Part shown: piece after piece, positions 16,846 through 42,758 of the stretch
Position numbering within the stretch: the stretch's first letter is position 1
Layout: every line of letters begins with the position of its first letter
Source of the DNA: Bradyrhizobium lablabi
GTDB taxonomy: Bacteria; Pseudomonadota; Alphaproteobacteria; Rhizobiales; Xanthobacteraceae
Reading direction: 5' to 3'
DNA length: 64,000 nt
Assembly: GCF_900141755.1 (NCBI RefSeq)
Contig: NZ_LT670844.1
Span: 3,534,001-3,598,000, forward strand
The notes under the pieces: generated by a model
What the model saw: only the letters and a program-made list of their open reading frames with translations
Told to the model about the DNA's origin: nothing
Database searches by the model: none
Translations under genes and position numbers: made by a program

Positions 16846-19677
16846 ATGCTTGGAACCGAGGCCCGCAAAGTGTCGCGCCCCCCGCTGATGGGGTTCTCGC
16901 CAAAGCACGATGAAGCCGCAGATTTCTGCGGCGTAGATCATGTATGTAATCCAGATCGGTTGCATGATCATGATTCGGCGTCGAACCCGGCGCCCGCGTC
17001 CCGAACGATCGATCGTCGTCGTCATGGTTGGCGAAGGATCGCGCTCGCAGTGCTTGCTCTATGCGGTGCGGGTAGCCCGATCGACATCGCGAAAGCCCAG
17101 TGTTCGATTTCCTCAAGCTATAACGGCACCTTCGTTCAGCCTGGCGTCGGATCCTGTACGATCACGCCGGGTACCACCCTCGGCGCGTCTCCTTTTGGCT
17201 TCTATCCGGCTCCCTACACGGGGCCAGTCTCCATCAACGCAGGTGCCGGCGACCAGATCACCGCCAACGGCATCACCATATTTTGGGTAAACGGCCAGGG
17301 CATCGGTGGTCTGGCCCGGAACGGCGGCGTGCTCATCTTCGGCGGCGGATCAACCATCAACGAGGGAATAAATGGCGGCGGCGGGAATACTGGCCTGGTC
17401 GCGGATGGACTCAACAGCCAGATCATCGCGACCGGTCTCGCCGTCAATATGGGAGGCGCGGGAAACAATGTTGGCGCCAATGCCGTCAATGGCGGCACGA
17501 TCACGCTGAACAGCGGGACGGCCGTCTCGTTCCTTCAGGGCGGCGGCGGGAATACTGGCCTGTTGGCATCCGGTGCGGGCAGCCGGATCATAACGAATGA
17601 CGCGACCGTGATTATCCCGCTCGTCGGGGGTTCGGGCGGTAATGATACCGGCGCGCGAGCCGAGGGAGGTGCTGCCATCACGCTCAATGGAGGCGCGGTC
17701 ACCCTTCAGGGCAATGGCGGCGGCGAGACGGGTCTGCTGGCGACTGGCTCCGGCAGCAGCATCAGCGGCACCGGCGTGGCGGTCAACGTCTCAAGCAATG
17801 GCGGCAATGCTCGCGGCGGGTTTTTGCAAAACGGTGCGACCATCGACCTGACCGGCGGCAGCGTCACCACGTCCGGCGGCGCCGGCAGCTATGGATTTCT
17901 CTTGCAAGCGCCGGCAGGCGTGACGAATGCGCTGGGCCTCGACGGCACGATAGTCAGCTCGGCGTCAGATGCGTTCGCGGTGCAAGGGGGCGGCGCCGCC
18001 ATCAACGCCGTCGACGCGACGGTAACCAGCAATAATGGAATCCTGCTGAGTGCCGTGCAGAACGCCACCGTCACAATGTCGAGCAATCACTCGGTACTGA
18101 CGGGCGCGATTTTCACCGACAACACCAGCACAAGCAACGTCACGCTCGCTGGCGGAACGATCTGGAATATGACCGGCAGCTCCAACGTCACCAATCTGGT
18201 GAACAACGACAGCGATATCATCGTTACCGCACCGGTATCATCAACGGCCTTCAAGACTTTGACCGTGGTGAACTACACGGGCACCGGCGGGACAATCACG
18301 CTCAACACCTTTCTCGGTGCCGACAATTCGCCGTCCGATCGGCTGATCGTCAATGGCGGCACGGCGACAGGCTCGACAAATCTCAGGATTCAAAACGCCA
18401 ACGGCCCCGGATATCAGACGGTTGCCGACGGCATCCTGGTCGTGAATACGACCAATGGCGGCGCCACGACTCCCGGCGCCTTCACGCTCGCTGGTGAGGT
18501 GCGCGGCGGCGCCTACGATTATTTTCTGTTCCGCGGCGGCCTCAGCGGCAATGCCCCCGATAACTGGTTCCTGCGCTCTTCGTTCGATGTACCGCCGATA
18601 CCACCGACACCTGAAGTTCCGCCCCCCATATTGCCACCCGATCCGCCGCCATCGACGCTGCCGCCGGGCATCTATCCGATCATCGGGCCGGAACTCGCTA
18701 CCTATGGTGTCGTCCAGCCCGTCGCCCGGCAATTGGGTCTTGCGACGCTGGGCACACTCAATCAGCGCATCGGCGACACGATGACACTGGCGAACGCCGG
18801 TACTGATGCGGCTGGATGGGGCCGCTCGGATTGGGGACGGTTATTCGGACGGCAGGTCAACGATCATTATCAGGCCTTTGCCGATCCGCGTGCAGACGGC
18901 TGGATAGGAGGCTTGCAGGGCGGCGTCGACCTCTGGCGCGCCAACTGGCTTTCCGGCCACCGCGACGCCGCGGGCGTTTATTTCGCCTATGGCCAGGCCA
19001 ATGTTAATGTGAACGGTCTCGTCACCAATGCGGCTGCAACCGGCTATGTGCTCACCCATACCGGCACCCTCAGTCTCGACGCGTTTTCCGCGGGCGCCTA
19101 TTGGACTCACTACGGTCCCAGCGGCTGGTATCTCGATGCGGTCCTGCAAAGGACGTCATATGGAGGTAACGCAACGACGCAATTCGCCCAGTTACCGACC
19201 AACGGCGTTGGCTTCATTTCGTCGCTGGAAGCGGGCTATCCAATACCACTGCCGCTTGGGCCGCATTTCGTGCTGGAGCCTCAAGCGCAGATCATCTGGC
19301 AGAAGGTTTCGTTCAATGATGCCAATGACGGTTTGGGCACGGTCGGCCTCGGCGCGACCTCAGGTCCGACCGGACGGCTAGGCGTGCGCGGCCAATGGAC
19401 CATCGATAGCAACAATGGAATTGTGTGGCAGCCTTATGTGGGAGTTAATTTCTGGCGAAGCTGGGGTACGAAAGCCGCGACGACGTTTTCCGCGATCGAT
19501 CAGGTGCAGCTGATCGAGAGCACAACACGCACGGAAGTCCTGGGCGGTGTAACCGCCAAGCTTAACAACCGTCTCAGTTTCTACGCCCAAGGCGGCTATC
19601 AATTCGTGATAGATCGATCGAACAACGGTAACCGCAGCGGCGCCCAAGGCAATATCGGGCTTCGATATACCTGGTGA
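16846..19677 (+). CDS. autotransporter-domain outer membrane protein (type Va)
   Basis: AGAAGGA stands just before the ATG. The first 60 residues are an unusual charged extension, then RRIALAVLALCGAGSP and a cleavage site near IAKA|Q. The passenger (residues about 85-590) is a glycine/asparagine/threonine-rich beta-helix with recurring GGGGNTGLLA, GGGETGLLATGSGS and GGTITLNSG blocks. A proline-rich linker (PPIPPTPEVPPPILPPDPPP) leads to a 12-strand beta-barrel (WGRLFGRQVNDHYQAFADP ... NIGLRYTW), ending in the aromatic residue needed for outer membrane insertion. No protease triad is visible, so it is more likely an adhesin or surface protein. The gene is flanked by two copies of the 30-bp tail repeat. 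Confidence 0.88.
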   Translation: MLGTEARKVSRPPLMGFSPKHDEAADFCGVDHVCNPDRLHDHDSASNPAPASRTIDRRRHGWRRIALAVLALCGAGSPIDIAKAQCSISSSYNGTFVQPGVGSCTITPGTTLGASPFGFYPAPYTGPVSINAGAGDQITANGITIFWVNGQGIGGLARNGGVLIFGGGSTINEGINGGGGNTGLVADGLNSQIIATGLAVNMGGAGNNVGANAVNGGTITLNSGTAVSFLQGGGGNTGLLASGAGSRIITNDATVIIPLVGGSGGNDTGARAEGGAAITLNGGAVTLQGNGGGETGLLATGSGSSISGTGVAVNVSSNGGNARGGFLQNGATIDLTGGSVTTSGGAGSYGFLLQAPAGVTNALGLDGTIVSSASDAFAVQGGGAAINAVDATVTSNNGILLSAVQNATVTMSSNHSVLTGAIFTDNTSTSNVTLAGGTIWNMTGSSNVTNLVNNDSDIIVTAPVSSTAFKTLTVVNYTGTGGTITLNTFLGADNSPSDRLIVNGGTATGSTNLRIQNANGPGYQTVADGILVVNTTNGGATTPGAFTLAGEVRGGAYDYFLFRGGLSGNAPDNWFLRSSFDVPPIPPTPEVPPPILPPDPPPSTLPPGIYPIIGPELATYGVVQPVARQLGLATLGTLNQRIGDTMTLANAGTDAAGWGRSDWGRLFGRQVNDHYQAFADPRADGWIGGLQGGVDLWRANWLSGHRDAAGVYFAYGQANVNVNGLVTNAAATGYVLTHTGTLSLDAFSAGAYWTHYGPSGWYLDAVLQRTSYGGNATTQFAQLPTNGVGFISSLEAGYPIPLPLGPHFVLEPQAQIIWQKVSFNDANDGLGTVGLGATSGPTGRLGVRGQWTIDSNNGIVWQPYVGVNFWRSWGTKAATTFSAIDQVQLIESTTRTEVLGGVTAKLNNRLSFYAQGGYQFVIDRSNNGNRSGAQGNIGLRYTW

Positions 19678-21370: not shown

Positions 21371-21405
21371 CGAGGGAACTCACTTTCGGCAGCGGAGTTG
21401 CGTCA
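21371..21405 (+). repeat. leader of the lanmodulin-like gene (repeated at 19787-19821)
   Basis: It contains the GGAG ribosome-binding site and the A of the start codon. The partner copy is detached from any coding sequence. Confidence 0.75.
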
Positions 21406-21842
21406 TGCAAGTCGAAACCGGACAGGCTGACCCCATGATATCGCGCCGCACATTGGTTCTCGCATTTACCGCGACTGCGCTGCTCGCCGGTGGGATGCCG
21501 GTCTCGGCAAAATCCCCCCGCTCTCGGCTGGTCGGGATGCTCGATACGGATAATGATGGCACGGTCGACCTCGCCGAGGCCAAGAAGGCCGCATCGGATC
21601 TGTTTGACAGATTGGATCGGGACCATGACGGCACGCTCGACCAACGCGAGCTTGCTCGCAGATTAACTCCGAAGGAGTTCGCCGCTGCCGATCCCGACCA
21701 CGATGGGACCCTCACCAAGGACGAATACCTCGCCGTGGTCGAGCAGCGCTTCAGCGCCGCGGATCCGGATCATGACGGGACGCTGGACGCCAAGGAATTG
21801 AATTCAAAGGCTGGTCAAGCTCTCTTGCGACTTTTGAAATAG
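21405..21842 (+). CDS. lanM: lanmodulin-like periplasmic lanthanide-binding EF-hand protein
   Basis: The ATG at 21405 has GGAG upstream; a second ATG at 21435 (MISRRTLVLAFTATALLAGG) would give just the signal peptide, which ends near VSA|K and has a twin arginine. Four EF-hand loops follow at residues 47-58 (DTDNDGTVDLAE), 71-82 (DRDHDGTLDQRE), 96-107 (DPDHDGTLTKDE) and 120-131 (DPDHDGTLDAKE). Loop-to-loop distances are 24, 25 and 24 residues, the close packing of lanmodulin rather than calmodulin, and loops 3 and 4 have the lanmodulin proline at position 2. Loop 3 has Thr instead of Asp at position 9. Lanmodulin binds lanthanides in the periplasm; the xox island nearby agrees. Metal choice is inferred. 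Confidence 0.85.
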   Translation: MQVETGQADPMISRRTLVLAFTATALLAGGMPVSAKSPRSRLVGMLDTDNDGTVDLAEAKKAASDLFDRLDRDHDGTLDQRELARRLTPKEFAAADPDHDGTLTKDEYLAVVEQRFSAADPDHDGTLDAKELNSKAGQALLRLLK

Positions 21843-21856
21843 TCGCAAGCCGTCAA

Positions 21857-22249
21857 TCAGACCCCGCCGGGTTGAACGTAGCAGAACACGTACCCGCCGC
21901 GACTCAAGAATACGATGCCGTGACCGGTTGGATTCGACCTGTCCCATTTGAGCTTGTTATTCGGGATCTCGATTTCCGTTCCGAGCGCGACGTGAGGCCG
22001 GCCGCGCGGTTCGTCGGGCCGGTCATCTGTGATGGTCGCGTAGGTTTTGCCGTCTTTGACGTGGATCTCGTCAGCCCAATAGGCGTCGGCCTCGCCGCAA
22101 CATGACGCATTCGGAACGTCCGGCTGCATGAGGGCCTGATACCATTCCCGGATTTCGGGATCGACTGCTCCCCATTGTCCGATATCGCGGGCGTTAACGA
22201 CTGAAATCGAGCAAGCAAGAATACCGAGACAAAGGATGATGCGCTTCAT
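21857..22249 (-). CDS. exported protein of unknown function
   Basis: Start at the ATG (MKRIILCLGILACSISVVNA) with AGGAG nine bases upstream. The signal peptide is followed by about 110 residues: RDIGQWGAVDPEIREWYQAL, PNASCCGEADAYWADEI, KDGKTYATITDDRPDEPRGR and GIVFLSRGGYVFCYVQPGGV. A CC pair and one more cysteine are present. I recognise it only as a common rhizobial exported protein with no assigned role. It is convergent with the lanmodulin-like gene (14 bases between stops). Confidence 0.75.
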   Translation of the reverse strand: MKRIILCLGILACSISVVNARDIGQWGAVDPEIREWYQALMQPDVPNASCCGEADAYWADEIHVKDGKTYATITDDRPDEPRGRPHVALGTEIEIPNNKLKWDRSNPTGHGIVFLSRGGYVFCYVQPGGV

Positions 22250-22425
22250 CCGGTCCAACTCCTGGGTTTACCGGCGAAGTCAATTCAAGCAAGCTTCGTG
22301 CCGAAAATCGTTGCACTGCGGTAAGTGACAGGGATATCAACAACATTTGCGCAGTTCCGACGCCGCTGAGCCCCGTATTTTTACGGACGGCCCAAGCTGA
22401 CCACCGCGGTTCCAATAGGGGAACC

Positions 22426-22853: not shown

Positions 22854-24068
22854 TCACTTAAGCTTGCACTTGGTTTCGGGCCGATCGAGGCCAAGCGTAT
22901 CAAGCGCCGATACCTGATGAAGGAAACCCTCCTGCGGCGATACCGACACCGTGTTTCTGCCGTCGAACAGCAGGATGGGCTGGCGCAGTTGCAGGTTCCA
23001 GTCACGCAGCGTGAGCTTCTGACCCTTGAAGGCGGCAACCGAGAATTCCGGGCTCTTGATGTAGGCAAGCATCTTGCCGGGTTCGCCGGAATTGGCGCGG
23101 ACCGCCGCTTCGCCGATCATGCGCACCGCCGTCCAGGCCTGGATGTCCTGCGCCGTCATCGGGCGCGAAAACGCTTTCGTAAAACGGTTTTGCAGCTGCA
23201 CGGCGCCCCATTGATCGAAAGCGGCATTCCATGTGGTGGGCACGAGTCCCGCGGAGCCTGCGACCGGACGGGGATCCCAGGTACGATACGGCAGGTACCC
23301 GGCAAAAACCTCGCTTTCATCCGCCGCAACAAGCACGTCGTGGTCGGGCAGGCCTTGCGTCACCACCGGCATCTGCCGCTGAATCTCGGCGACGCCGCTA
23401 TCGGTGCGTCGCGCGCCGCCAGAGTCCTTGAATTCACGCTCCTCGACGATCTTGGCGCCGAATCGGATCGCGGCATGGCGCAATGCATCGGCAAACAAGA
23501 CATCGTTTTCGTGCGAGCCTTTCAGCAGCACCCATTTGCGCCACTTCTTCCAGATCAGATATTGCGCGAGCGCGTCGGCGAGCATGGAACGCGTGGGAGC
23601 GACATGAATCACATTGCCCCGACAATCCTGTTCGCGCAGCCGTTCGTCCAGTGCGGATACGTTGATCAAGGTCTCGCTGCGCGCTAGGCCTGCGTCAGCC
23701 ACCTTCAGCAGCCGATCCGCATCGAGGTTCGTGACGATGAACGACACGCCCTGGTCGGCCAGCGAATTCATGGCTGCGACCGGGTCGTCGCCCTCGCCGA
23801 GCAATTTATCGATCAGCGTATAGCGCTGATTGAGGAAGCGCCCGGTGGCATTGTCGTCTTCGGTTGCGAGCTGGGCTCCGGCAAGCCCGTCATTGCCGGC
23901 CGGGATATCGATCAGCGATATCCGGATTCGCGATGGTGCCTGGCGGAGGTAGCCGATCTTGATTTCCAGCGGCTGCTCGGAGAGGCCCGCTGCGCTGGAA
24001 GCGATCAGTGCGCAGATACCAAGCAGCAGCCGAAGCAAATCACGCCTCCCATAAATTATTTTTGTCAT
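22854..24068 (-). CDS. PQQ-associated periplasmic ABC-type binding protein (branched-chain type)
   Basis: The 404-residue protein has a signal peptide (RRDLLRLLLGICALIASSAA) and then a type I periplasmic binding fold: IKIGYLRQAPSRIRISLIDI, DGLAGAQLATEDDNATGRFL, FIVTNLDADRLLKVADAG, LINVSALDERLREQDCRG and KWVLLKGSHENDVLFADAL. Proteins of this sort sit beside xoxF and the YVTN beta-propeller in quinoprotein clusters and, in Methylorubrum, a related protein belongs to the lanthanide uptake (lut) locus. It is divergent from the beta-propeller gene at 24189. Its ligand is unknown; PQQ, a lanthanide complex or an alcohol are candidates. The matching ABC-2 ATPase and permease are at 36162-37780. Confidence 0.8.
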   Translation of the reverse strand: MTKIIYGRRDLLRLLLGICALIASSAAGLSEQPLEIKIGYLRQAPSRIRISLIDIPAGNDGLAGAQLATEDDNATGRFLNQRYTLIDKLLGEGDDPVAAMNSLADQGVSFIVTNLDADRLLKVADAGLARSETLINVSALDERLREQDCRGNVIHVAPTRSMLADALAQYLIWKKWRKWVLLKGSHENDVLFADALRHAAIRFGAKIVEEREFKDSGGARRTDSGVAEIQRQMPVVTQGLPDHDVLVAADESEVFAGYLPYRTWDPRPVAGSAGLVPTTWNAAFDQWGAVQLQNRFTKAFSRPMTAQDIQAWTAVRMIGEAAVRANSGEPGKMLAYIKSPEFSVAAFKGQKLTLRDWNLQLRQPILLFDGRNTVSVSPQEGFLHQVSALDTLGLDRPETKCKLK

Positions 24069-25756: not shown

Positions 25757-25809
25757 AGACCATCAATTTTCCAAGCTCAAGAAAAACGATTTGAGTGGAG
25801 GAACGGCAA

Positions 25810-26919
25810 ATGAAGACACGCGCCGCTGTCGCGTTTGAGGCAAAGAAGCCCCTTGAAATCGTCGAGCTAGATCTGGATGGCCCCAAGGCGGGCGAAGTCC
25901 TTGTCGAAATCAAGGCGACGGGGATCTGCCACACCGACGCCTATACGCTTGATGGCTTCGACAGCGAGGGGATTTTCCCCTCGATCCTCGGCCATGAGGG
26001 CGCCGGCATCGTCCGGGAGGCGGGAAGCGGCGTGACCTCGGTGAAACCAGGCGATCACGTGATCCCGCTCTACACGCCGGAATGCCGCCAATGCAAAAGT
26101 TGCCTGAGCGGCAAGACCAATCTATGTACCGCGATCCGCGCGACCCAGGGCAAGGGCCTGATGCCTGACGGCACCACCCGCTTCAGCCACAAGGGCAAGC
26201 CGATCTTCCATTATATGGGCTGCTCGACGTTTTCGAACTTTACCGTGCTGCCGGAAATCGCGGTGGCGAAGATCCGCGAAGACGCGCCCTTCGACAAGAG
26301 TTGCTACATCGGCTGTGGTGTGACGACCGGTGTCGGCGCGGTGGTGAACACCGCCAGGGTGACGCCGGGCGCCAACGTGGTCGTGTTCGGGCTTGGCGGC
26401 ATCGGGCTCAATGTCATCCAGGGCGCCAAGATGGTCGGCGCCGACAAGATCATCGGCGTTGACGTCAACGACAGCAAGGAAGAATGGGGCCGCCGCTTCG
26501 GCATGACGCATTTCGTCAACCCCAAGAAGATCGATGGCGATATCGTCCAGCATCTGGTCGCGCTGACCGACGGCGGCGCCGACTATACCTTCGACTGCAC
26601 CGGCAACACCACCGTGATGCGCCAGGCGCTCGAGGCCTGCCACCGCGGCTGGGGCACGTCGGTCATTATCGGCGTGGCGGAAGCCGGCAAGGAAATTTCA
26701 ACCCGGCCATTCCAGCTCGTGACCGGCCGGGTCTGGAAGGGCACCGCGTTCGGCGGCGCGCGCGGCCGAACCGACGTGCCGAAAATCGTCGACTGGTACA
26801 TGAACGGCAAGATCCAGATCGATCCGATGATTACCCATGTCCTCAAGCTGGAGGAGATCAACAAGGGATTCGATTTGATGCATGAGGGCAAATCGATCCG
26901 TTCGGTGGTTGTTTTCTAA
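25810..26919 (+). CDS. frmA: S-(hydroxymethyl)glutathione dehydrogenase / class III alcohol dehydrogenase
   Basis: GGAGGAACGGCAA precedes the ATG. The 369-residue zinc enzyme oxidises S-hydroxymethylglutathione to S-formylglutathione with NAD. Catalytic zinc ligands are the Cys of [16 protein letters not shown], the His of [10 protein letters not shown] and Cys of [14 protein letters not shown]. The structural zinc cysteines are in [15 protein letters not shown]. The coenzyme site is [19 protein letters not shown], with D of IGVDVN selecting [16 protein letters not shown] and the absence of the short-chain alcohol pocket support class III. It begins a three-gene formaldehyde pathway (dehydrogenase, Gfa, S-formylglutathione hydrolase) that detoxifies or dissimilates formaldehyde made by XoxF. 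Confidence 0.97.
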
Positions 26920-26973
26920 ACCAAGAGCCGTGTTCTAAATCAAGAAGCGTCAAACAAACAGGAGGAATGACCC

Positions 26974-27543
26974 ATGACTGTTCATATCCACCCATCGGTT
27001 GACAGCGGAGTAAAGCAGGGCACCGGGAACTTCGCCGGCGGAACCCTTGTTTGCAAATGCCAGGACAAGCCGGTCAAGGTCGGCATCAAGGGCGACGTCG
27101 CACACAATCACGCCTGCGGTTGCACCCAATGCTGGAAACCCGAAGGAGCAACCTTTGCGGTGATCGCGGTCGTCCCGCGCGACAACGTGACCGTTCTTGA
27201 GAACGGCGACAAGCTGCGCGTGATCGACGCGTCGGCGACGATCCAGCGGCATGCTTGCAAGGTTTGCGGTGCCCATATGTACGGCCGCATCGAGAACAAG
27301 GGCCATCCGTTCTATGGTCTCGACTTCATCCATCCCGAATTGTTCACCGAAGGCGGCTCGGCCGCTCCGGGATTTGCCGCGTTTGTGTCCTCGGTGATCG
27401 AGTCCGGCGTCGAGCCGTCCGAGCTGCCAGCGATCAGATCGCGCCTCAAGGAACTCGGACTCGAGCCCTATGATTGCCTGTCGCCGGCACTGATGGATCA
27501 CATCGCCGCGCACGTGGCGAAATCGAGACCCAAGGCGGCCTGA
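26974..27543 (+). CDS. gfa: S-(hydroxymethyl)glutathione synthase (glutathione-dependent formaldehyde-activating enzyme)
   Basis: GGAGGAATGACCC precedes the ATG. The 189-residue protein is full length for Gfa. Zinc-binding cysteines: [26 protein letters not shown] and [13 protein letters not shown]. Other marks are [30 protein letters not shown] and a C-terminus ending PKAA. Gfa speeds the union of formaldehyde and glutathione, giving the substrate of the upstream dehydrogenase. It lies 54 bases after that gene, in the same transcript. Confidence 0.96.
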
Positions 27544-27640
27544 TCGCCATGCCCGGCTCGGTCGGTGAACAACCACCTGCCGAGCCTGGGCCGACCGCCG
27601 TTGCAATCCCGTCGCCGTGCGGCGCTGGAGCCGTAAGATC

Positions 27641-28483
27641 ATGACGGTCGAAACCGTTTCCCTCAACCGGTCTCACGATGGCATGCAGGGCGTCTACCGG
27701 CACGCCAGCCGCGAGACTGGAACCGGCATGACCTTTTCGGTCTTTGTCCCTCCACATCAAGACGGCGCGAAGCTACCGGTGGTCTGGTATCTGTCAGGCC
27801 TCACCTGCACCCACACCAACGTCACGGAAAAGGGCGAATTTCGCCAGGCGTGTGCCGAATTGGGCCTGATCTTTGTCGCGCCGGACACCAGCCCACGCGG
27901 AAATGTGCCCGGCGATCCTGCAGGCCTCTACGATTTCGGGCTTGGCGCCGGATTTTATGTCGATGCCACAGAACAGCCATTCGCGCGCAATTACCGCATG
28001 TGGAGCTACGTCACCGAAGAGCTGCCTGGGCTGATCGCCGAGCATTTTCCGGCCGATCCCAAGCGCCAATCGATCCTCGGCCATTCCATGGGTGGGCATG
28101 GCGCACTGACGATCGCGCTGCACCATCCCGACCGCTATCGCGCGGCCAGCGCGTTTTCGCCGATTGTGGCGCCGTCACAAGTGCCTTGGGGGATCAAGGC
28201 ATTGTCCGGATATCTCGGCGAGGCGCGCGACGCCTGGCGCAAGCACGATACCGTCGCATTGATCGAGGATGGCGCGCGGTTTTCCGATTTTCTGGTCGAT
28301 GTCGGCGATGCCGATCAATTCCTGAGCGAACAACTTCGCCCCGAACTATTGGAGCGCGCCTGTTCGCAAGCCGGTATTCCCCTTATCCTTCGCCGCCAGC
28401 CCGGCTATGACCACTCTTATTACTTCGTATCGACCTTCATGGCAGATCACATGCGCTGGCACGCCGCGCGAATGAAAGCATGA
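27641..28483 (+). CDS. fghA: S-formylglutathione hydrolase
   Basis: The start at 27641 (MTVETVSLNRSHDGMQGVYR) gives 280 residues, the usual length. It is an alpha/beta hydrolase: catalytic Ser149 in ILGHSMGGHGAL, Asp in DVGDADQFL and His in QPGYDHSYYFVSTFMADH. LPVVWYLSGLTCTHTN forms the oxyanion side and PDTSPRG is typical for the family. It splits S-formylglutathione into formate and glutathione, completing the formaldehyde oxidation route. It lies 97 bases after gfa. Confidence 0.97.
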   Translation: MTVETVSLNRSHDGMQGVYRHASRETGTGMTFSVFVPPHQDGAKLPVVWYLSGLTCTHTNVTEKGEFRQACAELGLIFVAPDTSPRGNVPGDPAGLYDFGLGAGFYVDATEQPFARNYRMWSYVTEELPGLIAEHFPADPKRQSILGHSMGGHGALTIALHHPDRYRAASAFSPIVAPSQVPWGIKALSGYLGEARDAWRKHDTVALIEDGARFSDFLVDVGDADQFLSEQLRPELLERACSQAGIPLILRRQPGYDHSYYFVSTFMADHMRWHAARMKA

Positions 28484-28901: not shown

Positions 28902-29870
28902 ATGTTCAGATTTTTCGTAACACTCTGCCTTGTGGTCGCCGCTGCACCGGCGCTGGCCGGCGAGACCTTGCGCATCGGCCTGCAGACGACCGGCACGTTT
29001 GCCTGGCAACTCGACGTGATCCGCCGCCACCACCTTGCCGATCGCGCTGGCCTCGATTTGAAAATCAGCGCATACGCTTCGCCAGATGCCGGCAAGCTCG
29101 CGCTCAATAGCGGCTCGGTCGATCTCGCCGTCGTCGATTGGCTCTGGGTTGCGCGAGCGCGCGCGCTCGGCGCCAAATGGCTGTTCTATCCCTATTCCAG
29201 CGCGGCCGGCGCCATTATGGTGAAAAGCGAATCGCCGGTACGGAAGATCGACGATCTCAGGGGTCGGGTTCTCGCCATTGCGGGCGGTCCGCTCGACAAA
29301 AGCTGGCTTATTGTCCAGGCGGCGGCGCTCCGCCGGGGCATCGATCTCAAGCGCGAGGCGACCCTCGCATACGGTGCCCCGCCGCTGATTTTTCAGAAAT
29401 TAGAGCAGGGCGAAGCCGAAGCGAGCCTCAATTTCTGGAATTTCTGCGCCAGGCTCGAGGCAAGAGGCTATCGGAGGATCCTCGATGTGCGTGATGCGGA
29501 AGTGGCCCTCGGGCTGCAACAGCCGGTGGGCCTCATCGGCTACACGTTTTCTGAGGAATTCGCCGCGAGCCACAGGAGCATGATTGATCGCTTCATCGCG
29601 ATTAGCGAACAGGCCGATGACATCATGCTGCGATCCGACGGGGAATGGGAAGCCCTTCGCCCGCTGATGAACGCAGAGGATGAACCGACGTTCAAGGCAT
29701 ATCGTGATCAGACCAGAGCGGGAATTCCGAGACGGCCGATCGCCGAGGAGGAAGCGGACGCCCGCAGGCTTTTCAAGGCCCTGGCGAGCATCGGAGGCCC
29801 GGAGCTCGTGGGTCCTTCGCAAGAACTTGATCCAGGTCTCTATTACCAGCCTGCTCCGAACGGAAACTGA
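28902..29870 (+). CDS. ABC transporter substrate-binding protein, NitT/TauT (NMT1) type
   Basis: 322 residues with signal peptide MFRFFVTLCLVVAAAPALAG. The binding-protein pattern is clear: LRIGLQTTGTFAWQLDVIRR, GLDLKISAYASPDAGKLALN, GSVDLAVVDWLWVARAR, DDLRGRVLAIAGGPLDKSW and ALRRGIDLKREATLAYG. It opens a three-gene ABC operon (binding protein, permease at 29871, ATPase at 30571) placed within the xox island of many alphaproteobacteria. The ligand is unproven; PQQ precursors, a lanthanophore or a C1-related compound are possible. The start codon of the permease follows its stop directly. Confidence 0.88.
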   Translation: MFRFFVTLCLVVAAAPALAGETLRIGLQTTGTFAWQLDVIRRHHLADRAGLDLKISAYASPDAGKLALNSGSVDLAVVDWLWVARARALGAKWLFYPYSSAAGAIMVKSESPVRKIDDLRGRVLAIAGGPLDKSWLIVQAAALRRGIDLKREATLAYGAPPLIFQKLEQGEAEASLNFWNFCARLEARGYRRILDVRDAEVALGLQQPVGLIGYTFSEEFAASHRSMIDRFIAISEQADDIMLRSDGEWEALRPLMNAEDEPTFKAYRDQTRAGIPRRPIAEEEADARRLFKALASIGGPELVGPSQELDPGLYYQPAPNGN

Positions 29871-30611
29871 GTGTTACCGAGAATCTATTCGCTGGCCGCT
29901 CTGATCGCCATTTGGGCCCTTGCAGCGGCATTGGCTCAATCACGTCTGTTGCCGGGCCCGCTCGCGATTGGGACGACAATCCTCGCCGACCTTCGTTCCG
30001 GCGAGCTGCCGTACCAGATCGGCTGCACGCTCGCGCGCGTGATCGTCGCGTTCGCGATCGCGATGGTGCTGGGCATTATCGCAGGTTATGCGATGGGCCG
30101 CTCGAGAACGATCGATCGATACGCCGATCCGTGGCTCGTCGTGCTTCTCAACATGCCGGCGCTGGTGACGATCATCTTTGCCTATATCTGGATCGGCCTC
30201 AACGAGACCGCCGCGATCCTGGCGGTAGCAGCCAACAAGCTGCCCAATGTGGTCGTCTTCATGCGCGAGGGCGCCCGCGCGCTCGATCCCGACTTCGACG
30301 AGATGGCGAAGGCCTTCAAATTCACCTGGTTTTCCAGAATTCGTCATGTCGTGATACCGCAGCTCGCGCCATTTCTGGCGGCAAGCTCGCGCTCCGGTCT
30401 GTCGATCATCTGGAAGATCGTTCTGGTGGTCGAGTTGATCGGGCGCCCGAATGGCGTGGGCTTCGTCCTGGGTTCGGCATTCTCGTTGTTCGACATGGCC
30501 AAAATACTAAGCTATGCGATCTCCTTCATCGCACTTATGCTGGTGATCGAAAGTCTTTTGGTGCAACCGCTTGAACGACGCGCAATTCGCTGGCGACGCC
30601 AACCCGCTTGA
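29871..30611 (+). CDS. ABC transporter permease, NitT/TauT type
   Basis: A GTG start follows the previous TGA without a gap. The 246-residue protein has about six membrane helices and the EAA-like loop FDEMAKAFKFTWFSRIRHV followed by VIPQLAPFLAASSRSGLSI, which contacts the ATPase. IGCTLARVIVAFAIAMVLGI and PALVTIIFAYIWIGLNETAA are typical of the SsuC/TauC family. Its last 41 bases overlap the ATPase gene, so the three products are made together. Confidence 0.93.
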   Translation: MLPRIYSLAALIAIWALAAALAQSRLLPGPLAIGTTILADLRSGELPYQIGCTLARVIVAFAIAMVLGIIAGYAMGRSRTIDRYADPWLVVLLNMPALVTIIFAYIWIGLNETAAILAVAANKLPNVVVFMREGARALDPDFDEMAKAFKFTWFSRIRHVVIPQLAPFLAASSRSGLSIIWKIVLVVELIGRPNGVGFVLGSAFSLFDMAKILSYAISFIALMLVIESLLVQPLERRAIRWRRQPA

Positions 30612-31335
30612 GCTCCGCATCGATGCGAAGAGCTTTCTGTCGGCGGATGGCACGCCGGTGGAAGTCGTCCGCGGCCTCGACCTTCGGCTCGAAGCGGGGT
30701 CGTTCGGGGCGCTGATCGGCCCTTCCGGATGCGGCAAGACCACGATCCTTAGAATCGCAGCCGGGCTCGATCCGGATTTCCGCGGCGTGGTTTGTGCACC
30801 GGGATCCGGGCGTCTGGGCATGGTATTTCAGGAGCCCCGCCTGCTGCCTTGGCGAACGGTCGAGGAGAACATCCGGCTTGCGCTGCCGGCAGGCAAGGCC
30901 GCCGCCGATCTGACGGAACTGGTCGAGATCCTTGGCCTCGGTTCCCACCTGGCACGATATCCCGGCGAGTTGTCATTGGGGCTTGCACGCCGCACCGCCA
31001 TTGCCCGGGCATTTGCGGTGCGGCCGGATTTTCTGCTGCTGGACGAACCTTTTGTGTCGCTGGATGAAACGGTCGCCGCAAGACTGCGCAACGAGCTTGT
31101 GGCGCTGACGACGCGGACAAAAGTGACGACCTTATTTGTGACCCACGATCTGGCCGAAGCCATCCAGCTGGCGGATCGCCTGTTTTTTCTGTCCGACCGC
31201 CCTGCGCACATTATCGCCGAAAGGACGCTGCCGCCGCCCCGGGGAGCGCGCAGCAGCGACGTCATTGCGTCGATCGCTGCTGAAATGCGGCTGTTGGTGT
31301 CGCAGGCGACGGCCGATGCCAAACGAGGTTGTTAG
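30571..31335 (+). CDS. ABC transporter ATP-binding protein, NitT/TauT type
   Basis: 254 residues starting at a TTG inside the permease gene. Walker A is IGPSGCGKTTIL, Q-loop FQEPRLLPWRT, Walker B FLLLDEPFVSLDE and the H-loop FVTHDLAEAIQLADR. The signature loop reads LSLGLARRTAIARAF, where most members have LSGGMRQR; the changed first glycine (LSLG) is unusual and may affect ATPase rate. It ends two bases before the convergent response regulator stop. Confidence 0.92.
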   Translation: MNDAQFAGDANPLELRIDAKSFLSADGTPVEVVRGLDLRLEAGSFGALIGPSGCGKTTILRIAAGLDPDFRGVVCAPGSGRLGMVFQEPRLLPWRTVEENIRLALPAGKAAADLTELVEILGLGSHLARYPGELSLGLARRTAIARAFAVRPDFLLLDEPFVSLDETVAARLRNELVALTTRTKVTTLFVTHDLAEAIQLADRLFFLSDRPAHIIAERTLPPPRGARSSDVIASIAAEMRLLVSQATADAKRGC

Positions 31336-33716: not shown

Positions 33717-36149
33717 ATGCGGCGGATACGCGCTCGATCCCTGTTTATCGTGCCGGCATCGATATGCCTGTTTTCCGGGAATGATATCGCGCGCGCCGAG
33801 GATCCGCCCGGCGCGGTGCAGGCATTGCCGCCCATCGTGGTCACGGGAACCAAGACTGGCGTTAAGCGCGGCCAGACGACAGGCGCCACCCGCATCGCCC
33901 GGACCGTGCCGAGGCTCGTGGTCTACCCGACCACGCCGTTATCGGGCCCAGGCTCCGGTATCGATCCCGAAAAGGTGCCGGCCAGCGTCAACGTCGTCGA
34001 CGCCAATCAGATCAAGCAGGCCGGCTCGCTGAACGTCAGCGATGCCCTGCAAAAATACGTGCCGGGTATCGTCGTCAATGAAGTTTCCGGCAATCCATTC
34101 CAGCCGAACGTGCAATTTCGCGGCTTCGTCGCTTCGCCTGTGGCCGGCACCCCGCAGGGGCTTGCGGTCTACCAGAACGGCGTGCGCATCAACGAAGCGT
34201 TCGGCGACACCGTCAACTGGGATTTGATTCCGACCGCGGCGATAAAATCGGTCACGGTGGTGACCAATAATCCAGCCTTCGGCTTGAACGCGCTGGGCGG
34301 CGCCATCGACATGCAGATGAAAGACGGCTTTGCCTATCAGGGCGCCGAAATCGACACGATGGGCGGCTCGTTCGGGCGCATCCAAAGCTCGGCGCAGTGG
34401 GGAAAACAGGTCGATCATTTTGCCGTCTACGGCGCGCTCGAGGGATTGCACGATGACGGATTTCGCAATTTCTCGCCCTCGGATGTTCGCCGCTTTTACG
34501 GTGATGTCGGCTACCGGAACGATGGAAACGAATTTCATCTCAACATGGGCGCCGCCGATAACAGGTTCGGCGCGACCGCAACGGCGCCGGTCGAGCTGCT
34601 TCAGCAATTTTGGGGCGCGACCTTCACCACGCCGCAAATCACCAACAACCGCGTTGGCTATGTCAATCTCACCGGGAAAGTCGAGGCCACGCCGAGCTGG
34701 ACGATCGAAGGTGTTGCGCATTTGCGGGTTTTCGACCAGAAGACCGAGGATGGCAACCCGACCGGAACTCAGCCCTGCACCACCGATCCGACGCTGCTCT
34801 GCTTTGGCAACGGCAGCACGCCGGCAAATGGCCTGAATGGGGCCCAGCTCGCTAATCCCTTCGATCCGAGCGCCACACTGGGAGAGATCGACCGAACGAC
34901 GACGCGATCGACGACGACGGGCGCGTCGTTGCAAGCCACAAATACCGATCAATTGTTCGGTCACGGCAACCATTTCACGGTCGGAACAAGTTTCGATTCC
35001 AGCGTGACGCACTTCTCGGCCCTCCCGGAACTGGGCACGATTGGTCCGAATTTCGTCGTCAGCGGTAGTGGAATATTTCTCGGCCAATCCGGCAATCCGG
35101 TTTCGATCGGCCCGGTGGCGCTTCGCACCACCAATCAATATAGCGGGCTTTATGCGCTCGATACGTTCGACGTCACCAACGCGTTCTCGATCACCGGCGG
35201 CGGCCGCTTCAACCTCGCTGATATCAAGCTCGAAGACCAGATCGGCAGCGCGTTAAACGGCAATGCCAGCTATACCCGCTTCAATCCGCTGATTGGCGGC
35301 ACCTATAAGATCACCCAGGGCGTTTCGGCCTATGCCGGCTATTCCGAAGCCAACCGCGCGCCAACCCCGCTGGAACTCGGTTGCGCCGATCCCGCCCGTC
35401 CCTGCATCGTCGCCGCATTCCTGGTCTCCGATCCGCCGCTGAAACAAGTCGTGTCCCGCACCGTGGAAGCTGGCCTGCGCGGCAGCAGTGAAGTGAACAT
35501 CGGCACGCTCGGGTGGAAGCTCGGGGTATTCCGCGCGGATAATACCGACGACATCCTCGCCATTCCCAGCCCAGTGCTGCAGGGATTCGGTTATTTTCAG
35601 AACGTCGGTTCGACGCGCCGGCAGGGGATCGAGGCCGAAGTCAATCTCAAATCGAGCGCCCTGCAGCTATACGCCAGCTACGCCCTCGTCGACGCCCGAT
35701 TCCTTGATGCTCTGCAGGTCGGCTCCAACAGCCCCTTCGCAGATGCCAACGGCCACGTCCAGATCGTTCCCGGCGATCGAATCCCCGCCATCCCGCGAAA
35801 CCGGGTCAAGGCCGGCATCGATTATTCGATCACCGATGCGTTCAAGATCGGAGGCGACGCCCTGTTCGTCAGCAGTCAATATTTTGTCGGCGACGAATCC
35901 AATCAGGCGCCGAGGCTGCCGTCCTATGCGGTTTTCAACCTCCACGCCTCGTACCAGATCGACAAGACGATGCATATCTACGCGCGTGCGGACAATATCT
36001 TTGATAATCGCTACGCGACCTACGGAACATTCTTCAATACCGGCACGGTTCCGAATTTCGCCAATGGCGGCGCGCCCTTCACCGACCCGCGCTCGATCAG
36101 CCCGGCGCGGCCGCGCGCGCTCTATGTCGGCCTGAAGGCCACGTTCTGA
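33717..36149 (+). CDS. TonB-dependent outer membrane receptor, candidate lanthanide/lanthanophore receptor
   Basis: 810 residues with signal peptide (SLFIVPASICLFSGNDIARA), TonB box ALPPIVVTGTK near residue 40, plug domain (VPASVNVVDANQIKQAGSLN, QKYVPGIVVNEVSGNPFQPN, FRGFVASPVAGTPQGLAVYQ, GVRINEAFGDTVNWDLIP, NPAFGLNALGGAIDMQMKDG) and a 22-strand barrel ending RALYVGLKATF. Such receptors import large or scarce ligands through the outer membrane. Its place beside the xox regulators and the ABC-2 transporter parallels LutH in the Methylorubrum lanthanide uptake locus. That assignment is by context. Acidic barrel segments could bind metal but cannot be proved from sequence. Confidence 0.9.
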   Translation: MRRIRARSLFIVPASICLFSGNDIARAEDPPGAVQALPPIVVTGTKTGVKRGQTTGATRIARTVPRLVVYPTTPLSGPGSGIDPEKVPASVNVVDANQIKQAGSLNVSDALQKYVPGIVVNEVSGNPFQPNVQFRGFVASPVAGTPQGLAVYQNGVRINEAFGDTVNWDLIPTAAIKSVTVVTNNPAFGLNALGGAIDMQMKDGFAYQGAEIDTMGGSFGRIQSSAQWGKQVDHFAVYGALEGLHDDGFRNFSPSDVRRFYGDVGYRNDGNEFHLNMGAADNRFGATATAPVELLQQFWGATFTTPQITNNRVGYVNLTGKVEATPSWTIEGVAHLRVFDQKTEDGNPTGTQPCTTDPTLLCFGNGSTPANGLNGAQLANPFDPSATLGEIDRTTTRSTTTGASLQATNTDQLFGHGNHFTVGTSFDSSVTHFSALPELGTIGPNFVVSGSGIFLGQSGNPVSIGPVALRTTNQYSGLYALDTFDVTNAFSITGGGRFNLADIKLEDQIGSALNGNASYTRFNPLIGGTYKITQGVSAYAGYSEANRAPTPLELGCADPARPCIVAAFLVSDPPLKQVVSRTVEAGLRGSSEVNIGTLGWKLGVFRADNTDDILAIPSPVLQGFGYFQNVGSTRRQGIEAEVNLKSSALQLYASYALVDARFLDALQVGSNSPFADANGHVQIVPGDRIPAIPRNRVKAGIDYSITDAFKIGGDALFVSSQYFVGDESNQAPRLPSYAVFNLHASYQIDKTMHIYARADNIFDNRYATYGTFFNTGTVPNFANGGAPFTDPRSISPARPRALYVGLKATF

Positions 36150-36161
36150 AGGATGCCCTGC

Positions 36162-37007
36162 TCAGCCGGCGGGACCATTGCGGCGGGCGAGGAAGCCGCG
36201 GGCGGGATCGTAGGCCAGGATCGCGCCAAACAGAAACGCCAGCGTGCAACCGAGCACCACGCCGAGCGACACCCAGGCCACCTGCCCATAGAGCGCAAAG
36301 CGGATCAGCTCAACCGCATGCGTGAAGGGATTGAGCTCGCAGACATAATACAGCAGCAGGCTGGATTCCTTGATCCGCCACAGCGGATACAGCGCCGACG
36401 ATGCAAAGAACATCGGAAAGATCACAAAATTCATCACGCCGGCAAAATTCTCGAGCTGCTTGATCAGCGACGAAATCAGCATGCCCAATGCCCCCAGCAT
36501 GAATCCGCTTAGCAGCAGTGCCGGCAGCAGCGCCAGATAGCCGAGCGGCGGCGCCTCGATATCCCAGAACCAGGCGATCAGCAGGAAGGCGTAGGCTTGC
36601 AGAACGGATACCAGCGTGCCCGCCAAAAGCTTCGATGTGAGCAGCCACCAGCGCGGGAACGGGCTGACAAGCAGCGTGCGCATTCCCCCGGTTTCACGGT
36701 CATAGACCATCGTCAGTGATGATTGCATGCCGTTGAAAAGCTGGATCATCGCGATCAGGCCGGGCGCGATATAGACTTCGTAGAGCACGTAAGTCTCGTA
36801 GGGCGGAATGATGGAGACGCCGAGCACCTGCCGAAATCCGGCGGCAAAAATGAAGAGCCAGACCAGCGGGCGCACCAGCGCGGAGACAAAGCGTTCGCGC
36901 TGATGGATGAAGCGCAACGCCTCGCGCCAGACGATGCCCTTGAGGCAGATGAAATACTGCGAAAGCGTAAAACCTTGGTGGTCCGTTGCATCGACCGTGA
37001 CCGTCAT
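36162..37007 (-). CDS. PQQ-associated ABC-2 type permease
   Basis: 281 residues with six membrane helices in ABC-2 arrangement: ALVRPLVWLFIFAAGFRQVL, YIAPGLIAMIQLFNGMQSSL, VYDRETGGMRTLLVSPFPRW, LLTSKLLAGTLVSVLQAYAF and GALGMLISSLIKQLENFAG. It closely follows the pattern of the permease in ped/xox clusters. Its ATG overlaps the ATPase stop by four bases, so it works with the ATPase at 37004-37780 and, I infer, the binding protein at 22854-24068, although ABC-2 permeases usually export. It converges with the TonB receptor. Confidence 0.9.
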   Translation of the reverse strand: MTVTVDATDHQGFTLSQYFICLKGIVWREALRFIHQRERFVSALVRPLVWLFIFAAGFRQVLGVSIIPPYETYVLYEVYIAPGLIAMIQLFNGMQSSLTMVYDRETGGMRTLLVSPFPRWWLLTSKLLAGTLVSVLQAYAFLLIAWFWDIEAPPLGYLALLPALLLSGFMLGALGMLISSLIKQLENFAGVMNFVIFPMFFASSALYPLWRIKESSLLLYYVCELNPFTHAVELIRFALYGQVAWVSLGVVLGCTLAFLFGAILAYDPARGFLARRNGPAG

Positions 37008-37780
37008 CCCGCCGGCTCCCGTTCTTCCTGGTCGGCGGCCCCGGTCAGCCGGTTGAATGCGTCGCGCAAGTCGCTAGCTCCGGACTTACCGACGACCTCG
37101 CCGAGCCCGCCATGCGCAAGGATGTTGCCCTTGTGCAGGACCACCACATCGTCGCCGGCGCCGGCTTCGTCGATGAGATGCGTCGCCCACAGCACGCCAA
37201 TGCCCTCCACCATCGAAAGCCTGCGAACGTGGTCGAGAATGTCGGCGCGCGCCTTGATATCGAGGCCGACGGTGGGTTCGTCGAGCAGCAGCAAACGGGG
37301 CTGGTGCAGCAGCGCCCGGGCAATCTCGATGCGGCGCATCTGACCTATTGAAAGATTTCCGACCCGATCCAGCGCGCGATCGGTCATGGCCACGCGATCC
37401 AGGACTTGCGCGATCAATTCCTTGGCTCGCTTGCTGGCGATACCGTGCAGCGCAGCATGGTACATCAGGTTCTGTCGCACCGAGATGTCGATATCGAGCG
37501 CGCGGGACTGAAACACGACGCCCAATTTGCTCAGGGCCGCACCCGGATCGCGCGCGACATCGTGCCCGAAAATGCGGATTTGACCCGATCTTATCGCATA
37601 GAGACGTGTAATCAGCGAAAACAGCGTCGACTTCCCGGCGCCATTCAATCCCAACAGGACGTTAAAGGACGACGGCCTGACAGTGAGGCTGACATTATTC
37701 AATGCGACCCGCGCACCGTAGCGATGGCTGACGCGATCGATCTCAAGCGCGGGCACTTGCGCAAGCGGGAATGGCTTCAT
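37004..37780 (-). CDS. PQQ-associated ABC transporter ATP-binding protein
   Basis: The ATG at 37780 has GGGAG five bases upstream (MKPFPLAQVPALEIDRVSHR), giving 258 residues. Walker A GLNGAGKSTLFSL, Q-loop VVFQSRALDIDISV, signature NLSIGQMRRIEIARALLHQP (LSIGQ, with Ile for the usual Gly/Ser), Walker B LLLLDEPTVGLD and H-loop LWATHLIDEA. It is the energy unit of the ABC-2 transporter and resembles LutE/PedA-type ATPases of quinoprotein clusters. Role in lanthanide, PQQ or metallophore movement is inferred. Confidence 0.92.
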   Translation of the reverse strand: MKPFPLAQVPALEIDRVSHRYGARVALNNVSLTVRPSSFNVLLGLNGAGKSTLFSLITRLYAIRSGQIRIFGHDVARDPGAALSKLGVVFQSRALDIDISVRQNLMYHAALHGIASKRAKELIAQVLDRVAMTDRALDRVGNLSIGQMRRIEIARALLHQPRLLLLDEPTVGLDIKARADILDHVRRLSMVEGIGVLWATHLIDEAGAGDDVVVLHKGNILAHGGLGEVVGKSGASDLRDAFNRLTGAADQEEREPAG

Positions 37781-38068
37781 TACCACTCCCGAACGCGCCT
37801 TGCCCATCCGCAAGCTAGCACATCGGAACCCCATACGTCGCGCAATCCACCGCCGATGAAATGCGTCATGCTTGGTATTTCCGACACGCAGGTCTTGAGG
37901 TTCATGTTCGCGATTTAGCCTACCGCGTTGTGTGCAGCAAGCTTCGGCGACGCTAGCTTGACCCGGATTCCCGATCCTGACAAAAATTATTCATGCTGGC
38001 GAAATTCAGTGCTGTACCTTGTGTTGCAGCGCACCGAACGTTCGGCATGTAAAACGCGCCGCTAGAGA

Positions 38069-38440
38069 ATGTTCACGATGGCCTGCCTGCGCATCTTGTT
38101 CCGATCAAGCGCTTTGTTGGCGATCTCAATCGCGGCCGCGAGCCCGCGCGCCATGGCCGAAGATCTCAATGACTATCCAACCGCGGCGCGCGCGGACTAT
38201 GTTTTCGGCTGCATGAAGGCCAACGGCGAAACTCAGGAACTTTTGCAAAAATGTTCCTGCTCGATCGACGTCATTGCCTCGATCATCCCTTACGACCGTT
38301 ACGTGACCACCGAGACTGTTCTCTCGATGTCCCAGGTCACGGGTCCGGTCGGTTCCGAGTTTCGATCGACCGAGCAAGCCAAGCAGGCGCTGCAGGAATT
38401 CCGCCGGGCCCAAGCGGAGGCAGAAGTTCGCTGCTTTTGA
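38069..38440 (+). CDS. small exported cysteine protein, unknown function
   Basis: 123 residues with signal peptide (ACLRILFRSSALLAISIAAA, cleaved near AMA|E). The mature part is helical with cysteines in YVFGCMKANG, LLQKCSCSIDVI and EVRCF. PYDRYVTTETVLSMSQ and EQAKQALQEFRRAQAEAE complete it. The CMKxNG...CxCxxD pattern recurs in small periplasmic proteins in xox/PQQ clusters, as far as I recall, but no role is known. It lies between the ABC ATPase (divergent) and the SoxYZ-like carrier (convergent). Confidence 0.8.
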   Translation: MFTMACLRILFRSSALLAISIAAASPRAMAEDLNDYPTAARADYVFGCMKANGETQELLQKCSCSIDVIASIIPYDRYVTTETVLSMSQVTGPVGSEFRSTEQAKQALQEFRRAQAEAEVRCF

Positions 38441-40628: not shown

Positions 40629-40661
40629 TTCACAGATGTGAAACGATTCACAGGACTGTGA
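40629..40661. promoter_or_regulatory. two tandem dyads upstream of xoxF, putative regulator binding sites
   Basis: TTCACA-GA-TGTGAA (40629-40642) and TCACAG-GA-CTGTGA (40648-40661) are perfect inverted repeats whose centres are 19 bases apart. They also share the direct repeat GATTCACAG. They lie 105-137 bases before the xoxF start, in the divergent region with the metallohydrolase gene. This arrangement fits two dimers bound on nearly the same face of the helix. The regulator may be the NarL-type protein at 31337-31957. Confidence 0.55.
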
Positions 40662-40765
40662 CAGGTGCCGGAAGAATTCATCCAAAAGAGGGCGGCCGAC
40701 GTCCCGCGGAGAATCTGATCCAAGGAGCGTCAGCCACCCTCGGCAAAAACCCAGGGAGGAAGCGA

Positions 40766-42646: not shown

Positions 42647-42678
42647 GGCCGACGCCACGGCTGGGTGACAATGAATTC

Positions 42679-42717
42679 GGCGCGCCGCCGCTTGCGTTGC
42701 GGCGCGCCGATTTTTTT
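42679..42717 (+). terminator. intrinsic terminator between xoxF and xoxG
   Basis: GGCGCGCCGC (42679-42688) pairs with GCGGCGCGCC (42699-42708), a perfect 10-bp stem with a 10-base loop, followed by GA and seven Ts. It is a strong Rho-independent terminator on the plus strand. It probably reduces xoxG/xoxJ expression relative to xoxF. Confidence 0.85.
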
Positions 42718-42758
42718 GCCCAACCACCATCTCCCAAAATTGTGTGAGGACAGTTTAC

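Follow-up and report, generated by a model that had tools for sequence, protein, structure and literature searches.

This locus raises the question of whether a short EF-hand gene of Bradyrhizobium lablabi encodes a lanmodulin, one of the small proteins by which bacteria retain rare-earth metals, as a sequence-only reading had proposed, and whether its loops, two without proline at position 2 and one with threonine at position 9, would give the protein a metal affinity or lanthanide preference of its own. The window, the whole stretch of DNA that was analysed, comprises 64,000 nucleotides (contig NZ_LT670844.1), and all coordinates refer to it.

The lanM gene and its EF-hand loops

The lanM reading frame (21405–21842, forward strand) is open throughout and contains four EF-hand loops. 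It has two in-frame ATG codons, at 21405 and at 21435. Most of the 120 nearest homologues listed are 135 residues long and begin at the second of these, with MISRR, so the coding sequence is most likely 21435–21842 (forward strand), a predicted 135-residue lanmodulin precursor matching NF053806.1; the start at 21405 would add 10 residues absent from most homologues. The frame first proposed is thus real, while its start, placed at 21405, should probably be moved to 21435. A protein search of the single 7.91-Mb contig of the host genome found one lanM copy, and between 21200 and 22000 no sigma-70 promoter or terminator consensus was found at the gene.

The precursor begins M-I-S-R-R-T-L-V and its putative signal peptide is MISRRTLVLAFTATALLAGGMPVSA (21435–21509, forward strand), with the cleavage after VSA placed by eye. 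The twin arginine (21444–21449, forward strand) lies in the stretch S-R-R-T-L-V, of which RRTLV fits the default TatP pattern RR.[FGAVML][LITMVF]. The four loops follow on the same strand: loop 1 DTDNDGTVDLAE (21543–21578), loop 2 DRDHDGTLDQRE (21615–21650), loop 3 DPDHDGTLTKDE with Thr at position 9 (21690–21725) and loop 4 DPDHDGTLDAKE (21762–21797). Their starts are 24, 25 and 24 residues apart, leaving 12, 13 and 12 residues between the loops, a spacing confirmed by translation and by comparison with homologues. The letters read earlier from the loops also held: T, R, P and P at position 2 of loops 1 to 4, N, H, H and H at position 4, and Thr at position 9 of loop 3. Hallmarks of lanmodulins are therefore found in the protein: four EF-hand motifs (PMC10232371), 12–13 residues between adjacent loops, and proline at position 2 of at least one EF-hand, here loops 3 and 4. 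At 135 residues the precursor is also within the family limit of fewer than 200, and, like other members, it is probably exported, the signal peptide being judged by eye and by its conservation.

Family membership, predicted fold and known relatives

The NCBIfam lanmodulin equivalog NF053806.1 matches the window protein with 168.2 bits against a cut-off of 135 (E 8.8e-50), and the next-best NCBIfam family, the calcium-binding effector model XopAW, stays well below its own threshold (45.1 bits, cut-off 120). This profile search had been named beforehand as a possible refutation, and it favoured lanmodulin. The best sequence matches in the PDB are lanmodulins as well: Mex-LanM from Methylorubrum extorquens AM1 (entries 6mi5 and 8fns; 2.1e-29 and 2.5e-29), Ancylobacter LanM (9pi2; 7.4e-20) and Hans-LanM from Hansschlegelia quercus (8dq2 and 8fnr; 3.1e-18). 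An AlphaFold2 model, built from 42 sequences and with a mean pLDDT of 79.2, superposes on Nd-bound Mex-LanM (8fns) with a TM-score of 0.92 by target length and 1.3 Å, and has the three-helix bundle with outward metal sites of lanmodulins, here in a predicted, metal-free form. In a structure search all four matches with E of 0.001 or less were lanmodulins. Calmodulins came lower in the list with TM-scores of about 0.2, and a calmodulin-type calcium EF-hand protein was rejected on profile and fold.

That the gene might instead encode a calcium EF-hand protein of the calerythrin or CREC type is suggested by the mainly generic EF-hand models that Pfam returns and by the source name "Ca2+-binding EF-hand superfamily protein" carried by many homologues. 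We regard this as extremely improbable, since the lanmodulin model and fold fit far better than any calcium EF-hand protein and the loop spacing is that of lanmodulins. On the profile, the PDB matches, the spacing and the predicted fold, the window gene encodes a lanmodulin, as first proposed, and an ordinary member of a large family. As one among thousands of related sequences (4070 at E 1e-10), it changes little by itself. In a collection of 72,556 plasmid records, 54 matched, all with less than 60% identity (59% in the best row, which covers 74% of the query), and none of these 54 was Bradyrhizobium by name; the 15 lanmodulins that a 2025 paper places on Bradyrhizobium plasmids (PMC12482762) were not reproduced there.

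For comparison across the family, genome searches were made at the level of the family (391 genomes, 110 with a match over the cut-off) and of the order (397 genomes, 29 over the cut-off, some of them common to both searches), with 120 neighbourhood stretches from the family search and 32 named loci as further sources. Selecting for 24/25/24 spacing with no fewer than 17 of the 20 EF-hand key letters gave 161 distinct lanmodulin domains, a set that leaves out lanmodulins with other spacing or fewer key letters. A tree of 153 rows (138 domains, 12 of the 120 listed homologues and three PDB chains) was built without loop positions 1, 2 and 9; it has few columns, and 82 of its 149 inner branches are open. 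The window protein falls in a 17-row group (SH-aLRT 90) on the Mex-LanM side, away from Hans-LanM. Three homologue lists, two of them from searches with the mature part only, were sorted by position 10 of loop 3 into 219 rows of the window type (K or R), 122 of a sister type (L, V, M or I) and 11 others, two rows being skipped for a low loop score.

Mex-LanM shares with the window protein the four EF-hands, the 24/25/24 spacing, the predicted fold and 57% identity over 99 residues; it differs in having proline at position 2 of all four loops, Asp9 in loop 3 and Asn1 in loop 4. The lanmodulin of Methylobacterium aquaticum 22A, with T and K at position 2 of the first two loops, resembles the window protein in lacking both prolines and in the Thr of loop 1, but has Lys rather than Arg in loop 2, and its gene lies, in the published description, away from the lanthanide transport genes (PMC9260416). 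Ten Methylobacterium loci with the same T/K pattern (L195–L202, L206 and L208) retain Asp9 in loop 3, unlike the window protein. Ancylobacter LanM and Hans-LanM have the lanmodulin spacing, and Hans-LanM also the fold; however, Hans-LanM has Asn1 and Glu9 in loops 1–3 and one proline out of four, and is described as dimerising with light lanthanides. A Hans-type protein was rejected on the tree and the loop letters, Asn1 and Glu9 being absent from loops 1–3 of the window protein. The sister type consists of lanmodulins of Bradyrhizobium xox clusters (position 2 letters TPPP or PPPP, for example L052 and L191). It shares the genus and the Thr9 of loop 3 with the window protein and differs in the proline usual in loop 2 and in Leu at position 10 of loop 3. 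Judged from these alignments, the window lanmodulin has an ordinary proline pattern, a conserved twin arginine and a change in loop 3 that its relatives in Bradyrhizobium have in common with it.

Proline at position 2

In the sequence-only reading, proline at position 2 was called typical and its lack in loops 1 and 2 was singled out as special; neither view survives the comparison. Among the 161 domains, proline occupies position 2 of loops 1 to 4 in 54, 83, 149 and 143 cases, and all four loops have it in only 23. In 47 domains neither loop 1 nor loop 2 has it, and 35 of these retain it in loops 3 and 4; 22A LanM is without the same two prolines. On the 153-row tree, loops 1 to 4 require at least 10, 16, 7 and 11 changes of this state. 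The T/R/P/P pattern of the window protein recurs in 93 of the 119 nearest homologues listed that have readable loops (120 were listed). The varied counts, the repeated changes and this recurrence together make the pattern a trait of a group inside a widely varying family; by these counts, the absent prolines are common natural variation in lanmodulins, and proline at position 2 is no fixed mark of the family.

The absent prolines of loops 1 and 2 could still give the window protein a distinct metal preference, mainly a weaker discrimination against Ca2+ with lanthanide affinity kept. The T and R at position 2 of these loops speak for this, and so does Mex-LanM, where substitution of the prolines by alanine lowered selectivity over Ca2+ and left lanthanide affinity intact (PMC12603986). 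By analogy, the latter result suggests that loss of proline would alter selectivity over Ca2+ rather than lanthanide affinity. Against a distinct preference, both prolines are absent from so many domains, and Hans-LanM and 22A LanM, with one and two of four prolines, both bind lanthanides. La3+ makes purified 22A LanM more compact, with 3.65 La3+ bound per molecule, and the His-tagged protein shows a smaller shift in gel filtration with Ca2+ than with La3+ (both from PMC9260416). On balance we hold a distinct preference caused by the prolines to be possible, though somewhat on the doubtful side. The idea is largely in print already, given these data on 22A LanM and on the Mex-LanM substitutions; a 2025 paper also lists three, two and one prolines out of four for the lanmodulins of RH AL1, 22A and H. 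quercus (PMC12603986). The term "4P2A" together with lanmodulin was not found in the open-licence literature.

Threonine or serine at position 9 of loop 3

Among the homologues listed, 218 of the 219 window-type rows carry T or S at position 9 of loop 3, as do all 122 sister-type and all 11 other rows; for the near relatives of the two Bradyrhizobium types this makes 340 of 341. At the same position the 161 domains show 94 Thr, 47 Asp, 11 Ser and seven Glu, while loops 1, 2 and 4 have Asp9 in 153, 142 and 146. In Mex-LanM, Asp9 forms a hydrogen bond to a metal-bound water, and in Hans-LanM Glu9 is itself a ligand (both from PMC10232371). Threonine is without the carboxylate of Asp9, so the second sphere of the loop 3 site would be expected to change, perhaps with another selectivity along the lanthanide series. 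The near-fixed T or S, next to the Asp9 kept by the other loops, and the water-holding role of Asp9 in Mex-LanM favour such an altered site; yet shared ancestry alone could maintain the residue, and Asp9 is common outside the two Bradyrhizobium types, which makes Thr/Ser9 a change of one lineage. An altered loop 3 site is accordingly a tentative reading, to which we give rather less than even weight. In the portions seen of the open-licence literature (including PMC10232371, PMC12482762, PMC10875860, PMC9260416, PMC7391723, PMC11845868, PMC12603986 and PMC11848957), no measured lanmodulin with Thr9 in loop 3 was found, and in such literature, likewise consulted in part, no binding data for a Bradyrhizobium lanmodulin. 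As a natural change at the water-holding position of Mex-LanM, found in a large group, Thr/Ser9 offers an inexpensive probe of the role of loop 3 in selectivity.

Position 1 varies between the types too. Of the homologues listed, 82 of the 219 window-type rows but none of the 122 sister-type rows have Glu1 in loop 2, and Asp1 in loop 4 occurs in 125 and 33 of them, respectively. These differences perhaps reflect a shift of strong sites between loops.

The twin arginine and the route of export

Of the 120 nearest homologues listed, 118 were scored by script as having RR close to the start (P0053, not counted, also has it), and so were 208 of the 219 window-type rows of the three lists. Inspected by eye, the 11 rows missed comprise P0055 and P0082, which have MISRR, seven that start downstream, and P0107 (SPR) and P0232 (SRH), which lack RR. 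With the seven downstream-starting rows left out, RR is thus present in 210 of the 212 complete window-type sequences listed; the count on the tree is 209 of 212, since P0195, with SRR, escaped the pattern used there. In the sister type, RR occurs in 87 of the 122 listed rows, or in 87 of 118 after four rows were dropped, 31 of the 118 having lost it (Fisher 2.5e-9 between the types, kinship ignored). On a FastTree phylogeny RR changed three times over a branch length of 13.87 in the window type against eight times over 6.58 in the sister type, a difference in rate with a binomial p of 0.007 (0.003 without P0195). The strict TatP pattern fits 169 of 219 window-type and 28 of 122 sister-type rows and, with Ile allowed, 203 of the 219. 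A Tat-type motif of (S/T)RR, any residue and then hydrophobic residues is kept in the relatives, and the seven TRPP rows for which DNA was available use four codon pairs for the two arginines. Methylobacterium and Hans-like precursors show by eye no S-R-R after the presumed start, while L196 has T-R-R.

Export of the lanmodulin precursor by Tat rather than by Sec would agree with several of these observations: the retention of RR in the window type while the hydrophobic residues that follow exchange freely, its slower change there, the excess of the strict TatP pattern, and a TatC encoded in the host genome. Other observations weigh against Tat. Among 61 signal peptides crudely called in the host genome, 22 carry RR in the n-region and nine fit the fuller pattern with Ile allowed, and the TatP pattern by itself wrongly picks out 7% of Gram-negative Sec proteins. 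Pseudomonas putida PedH, a lanthanide protein with RR, was unaffected by single tatC deletions (PMC6839425). The signal cores of the window type are less hydrophobic than those of loop-3-D9 loci without [ST]RR (p 1.6e-5) and as hydrophobic as those of the sister type (p 0.20); the most hydrophobic cores of all belong to D9 loci that do have [ST]RR. Signal hydrophobicity, which does not separate window and sister type, was dropped as support for Tat. Taken together, we consider Tat export of the precursor rather unlikely, though deserving of attention.

A bolder version would make the window-type lanmodulins Tat substrates with metal-gated export, acting as lanthanide exporter or sensor and not as a periplasmic catcher. 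Lanmodulin folds only on binding lanthanide, so an exporter of folded proteins could pass only the loaded form. However, short unstructured hydrophilic chains of 100–120 residues can pass Tat (PMC6708511), and metal gating therefore need not follow. For Tat export in general, MncA provides an earlier example in which the metal is secured before the protein is exported (PMC8867077). We think this version very doubtful. In a weaker form, a tight Ln3+ binder might fold in the cytoplasm and block Sec, and hence use Tat. In the passages seen of the open-licence literature no link of lanmodulin to twin-arginine export was found, papers that name both having lanmodulin among their references only, which does not prove its absence in print. 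If the twin arginine did mean Tat export, the compartment where these lanmodulins meet lanthanides would need rethinking.

Neighbourhood of lanM and proposed role

The proposed xox setting is borne out by the genes around lanM, which are of the lut, xox and formaldehyde-oxidation types. An ABC substrate-binding protein of the PQQ alcohol dehydrogenase type (TIGR03863, 467.5 bits, cut-off 413.6) lies 1 kb from lanM on the reverse strand (22854–24068), followed on the forward strand by a PQQ-associated beta-propeller (TIGR03866, 24189–25172, 480.3 bits, cut-off 287.3), the two neighbours named in the earlier reading. Three genes of glutathione-dependent formaldehyde oxidation, each over its cut-off, come next (class III alcohol dehydrogenase, S-(hydroxymethyl)glutathione synthase and S-formylglutathione hydrolase; 25795–28483, forward strand). 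Further on are a TonB-dependent receptor (33717–36149, forward strand) and an ABC permease and ATPase of the PQQ alcohol dehydrogenase type (36162–37834, reverse strand; TIGR03861 with 400.3 bits, cut-off 241.35, and TIGR03864 with 327.4 bits, cut-off 302.25). The group of xoxF, a methanol-metabolism cytochrome of the xoxG type and a xoxJ-type binding protein occupies 40658–44218 (forward strand), with xoxF itself at 40658–42646 (forward strand), 18.8 kb from lanM, close to the 19 kb first estimated. The xoxF product matches the lanthanide-dependent XoxF of entry 6oc5 at 1.7e-298, and a WDFDG stretch is common to both; its last Asp is, we assume, the lanthanide-diagnostic one. SoxYZ- and SoxH-like quinoprotein genes are also present in the neighbourhood.

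The lut cluster of M. extorquens comprises an ABC system, a TonB receptor and lanM (PMC7391723). Counterparts in the window can be proposed from family names: the TIGR03863 protein would correspond by role to LutA and the TIGR03861/TIGR03864 permease and ATPase to LutF and LutE, while the TonB-dependent receptor is LutH-like by position only. The TIGR03863 protein begins MTKIIYGRRDLLRLLLG, likewise a twin-arginine-like signal.

Linkage in other genomes was counted for the 131 of 161 domains whose loci span 10 kb or more, a gene being called at 40% identity over half the query; window type here means T or S at position 9 with K, R or E at position 10, the window itself being left out. Genes of the xox type accompany lanM at 68 of 76 sister-type, 1 of 22 window-type, 0 of 27 loop-3-D9 and 0 of 6 Hans-like loci, where, as the stretches reach at most about 10 kb on each side, the 18.8-kb gap of the window would itself score as a miss. 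For lut-type genes the counts are 10 of 76, 6 of 22, 2 of 27 and 0 of 6, and six of the 22 window-type loci have lut- or xox-type genes in their stretch. In Bradyrhizobium sp. S69 (L180), 13 of 22 probed window genes occur in a 20-kb stretch, xoxF not among them. A 2024 survey reports lanmodulin in one Bradyrhizobium, not adjoining xoxF (PMC10875860), a situation closer to the window type than to the sister type.

While the family, the predicted fold and the neighbourhood of the window lanmodulin are shown by computation, metal binding, folding on binding and a buffering role would be expected by analogy with Mex-, Hans- and 22A-LanM. The protein would be exported and stay largely unfolded until metal binds; three or four Ln3+ ions would then fill the EF-hand loops and produce a compact three-helix bundle, and the loaded form would buffer lanthanides or pass them on between their uptake at the outer membrane, through the TonB receptor and the lut-type ABC system, and the XoxF methanol dehydrogenase. 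Taken as a whole, lanmodulin identity included, we consider this reading of the gene highly probable. The presence of xox genes at most sister-type loci supports it, whereas the weaker linkage in window-type loci speaks against it. In 22A, deletion of lanM left growth on methanol unimpaired, although La3+ made the mutant aggregate (PMC9260416), and a transposon study of M. extorquens had no hit in lanM (PMC7391723); on these grounds the physiological role of lanmodulin in general is unsettled.

Several further genes of the window deserve mention. An SsuA/NMT1-type binding protein with permease and ATPase is encoded at 28902–31335. A relative of this binding protein accompanies 74 of 76 sister-type Bradyrhizobium lanM genes, so the system may be an uncharacterised transporter of xox clusters. 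A 123-residue exported protein without NCBIfam or Pfam match (38069–38440) has relatives of about 57–75% identity in many sister-type loci, and a 133-residue exported protein, also without NCBIfam or Pfam match (21857–22258) and convergent with lanM, has relatives in loci L115, L122 and L179. Upstream of the lanM region an autotransporter with an outer-membrane barrel domain is located (16846–19677). In other genomes lanmodulin genes can be paired: two window-type lanmodulins (L099 and L121) occur in one genome (G359), with no xox or lut genes in their 20-kb stretch, and at L069, L075 and L097 (genomes G242, G204 and G382) a second lanmodulin gene shares the contig with the first at a distance of 17–20 kb, the second one in G382 being below the family cut-off and broken by two TGA codons.
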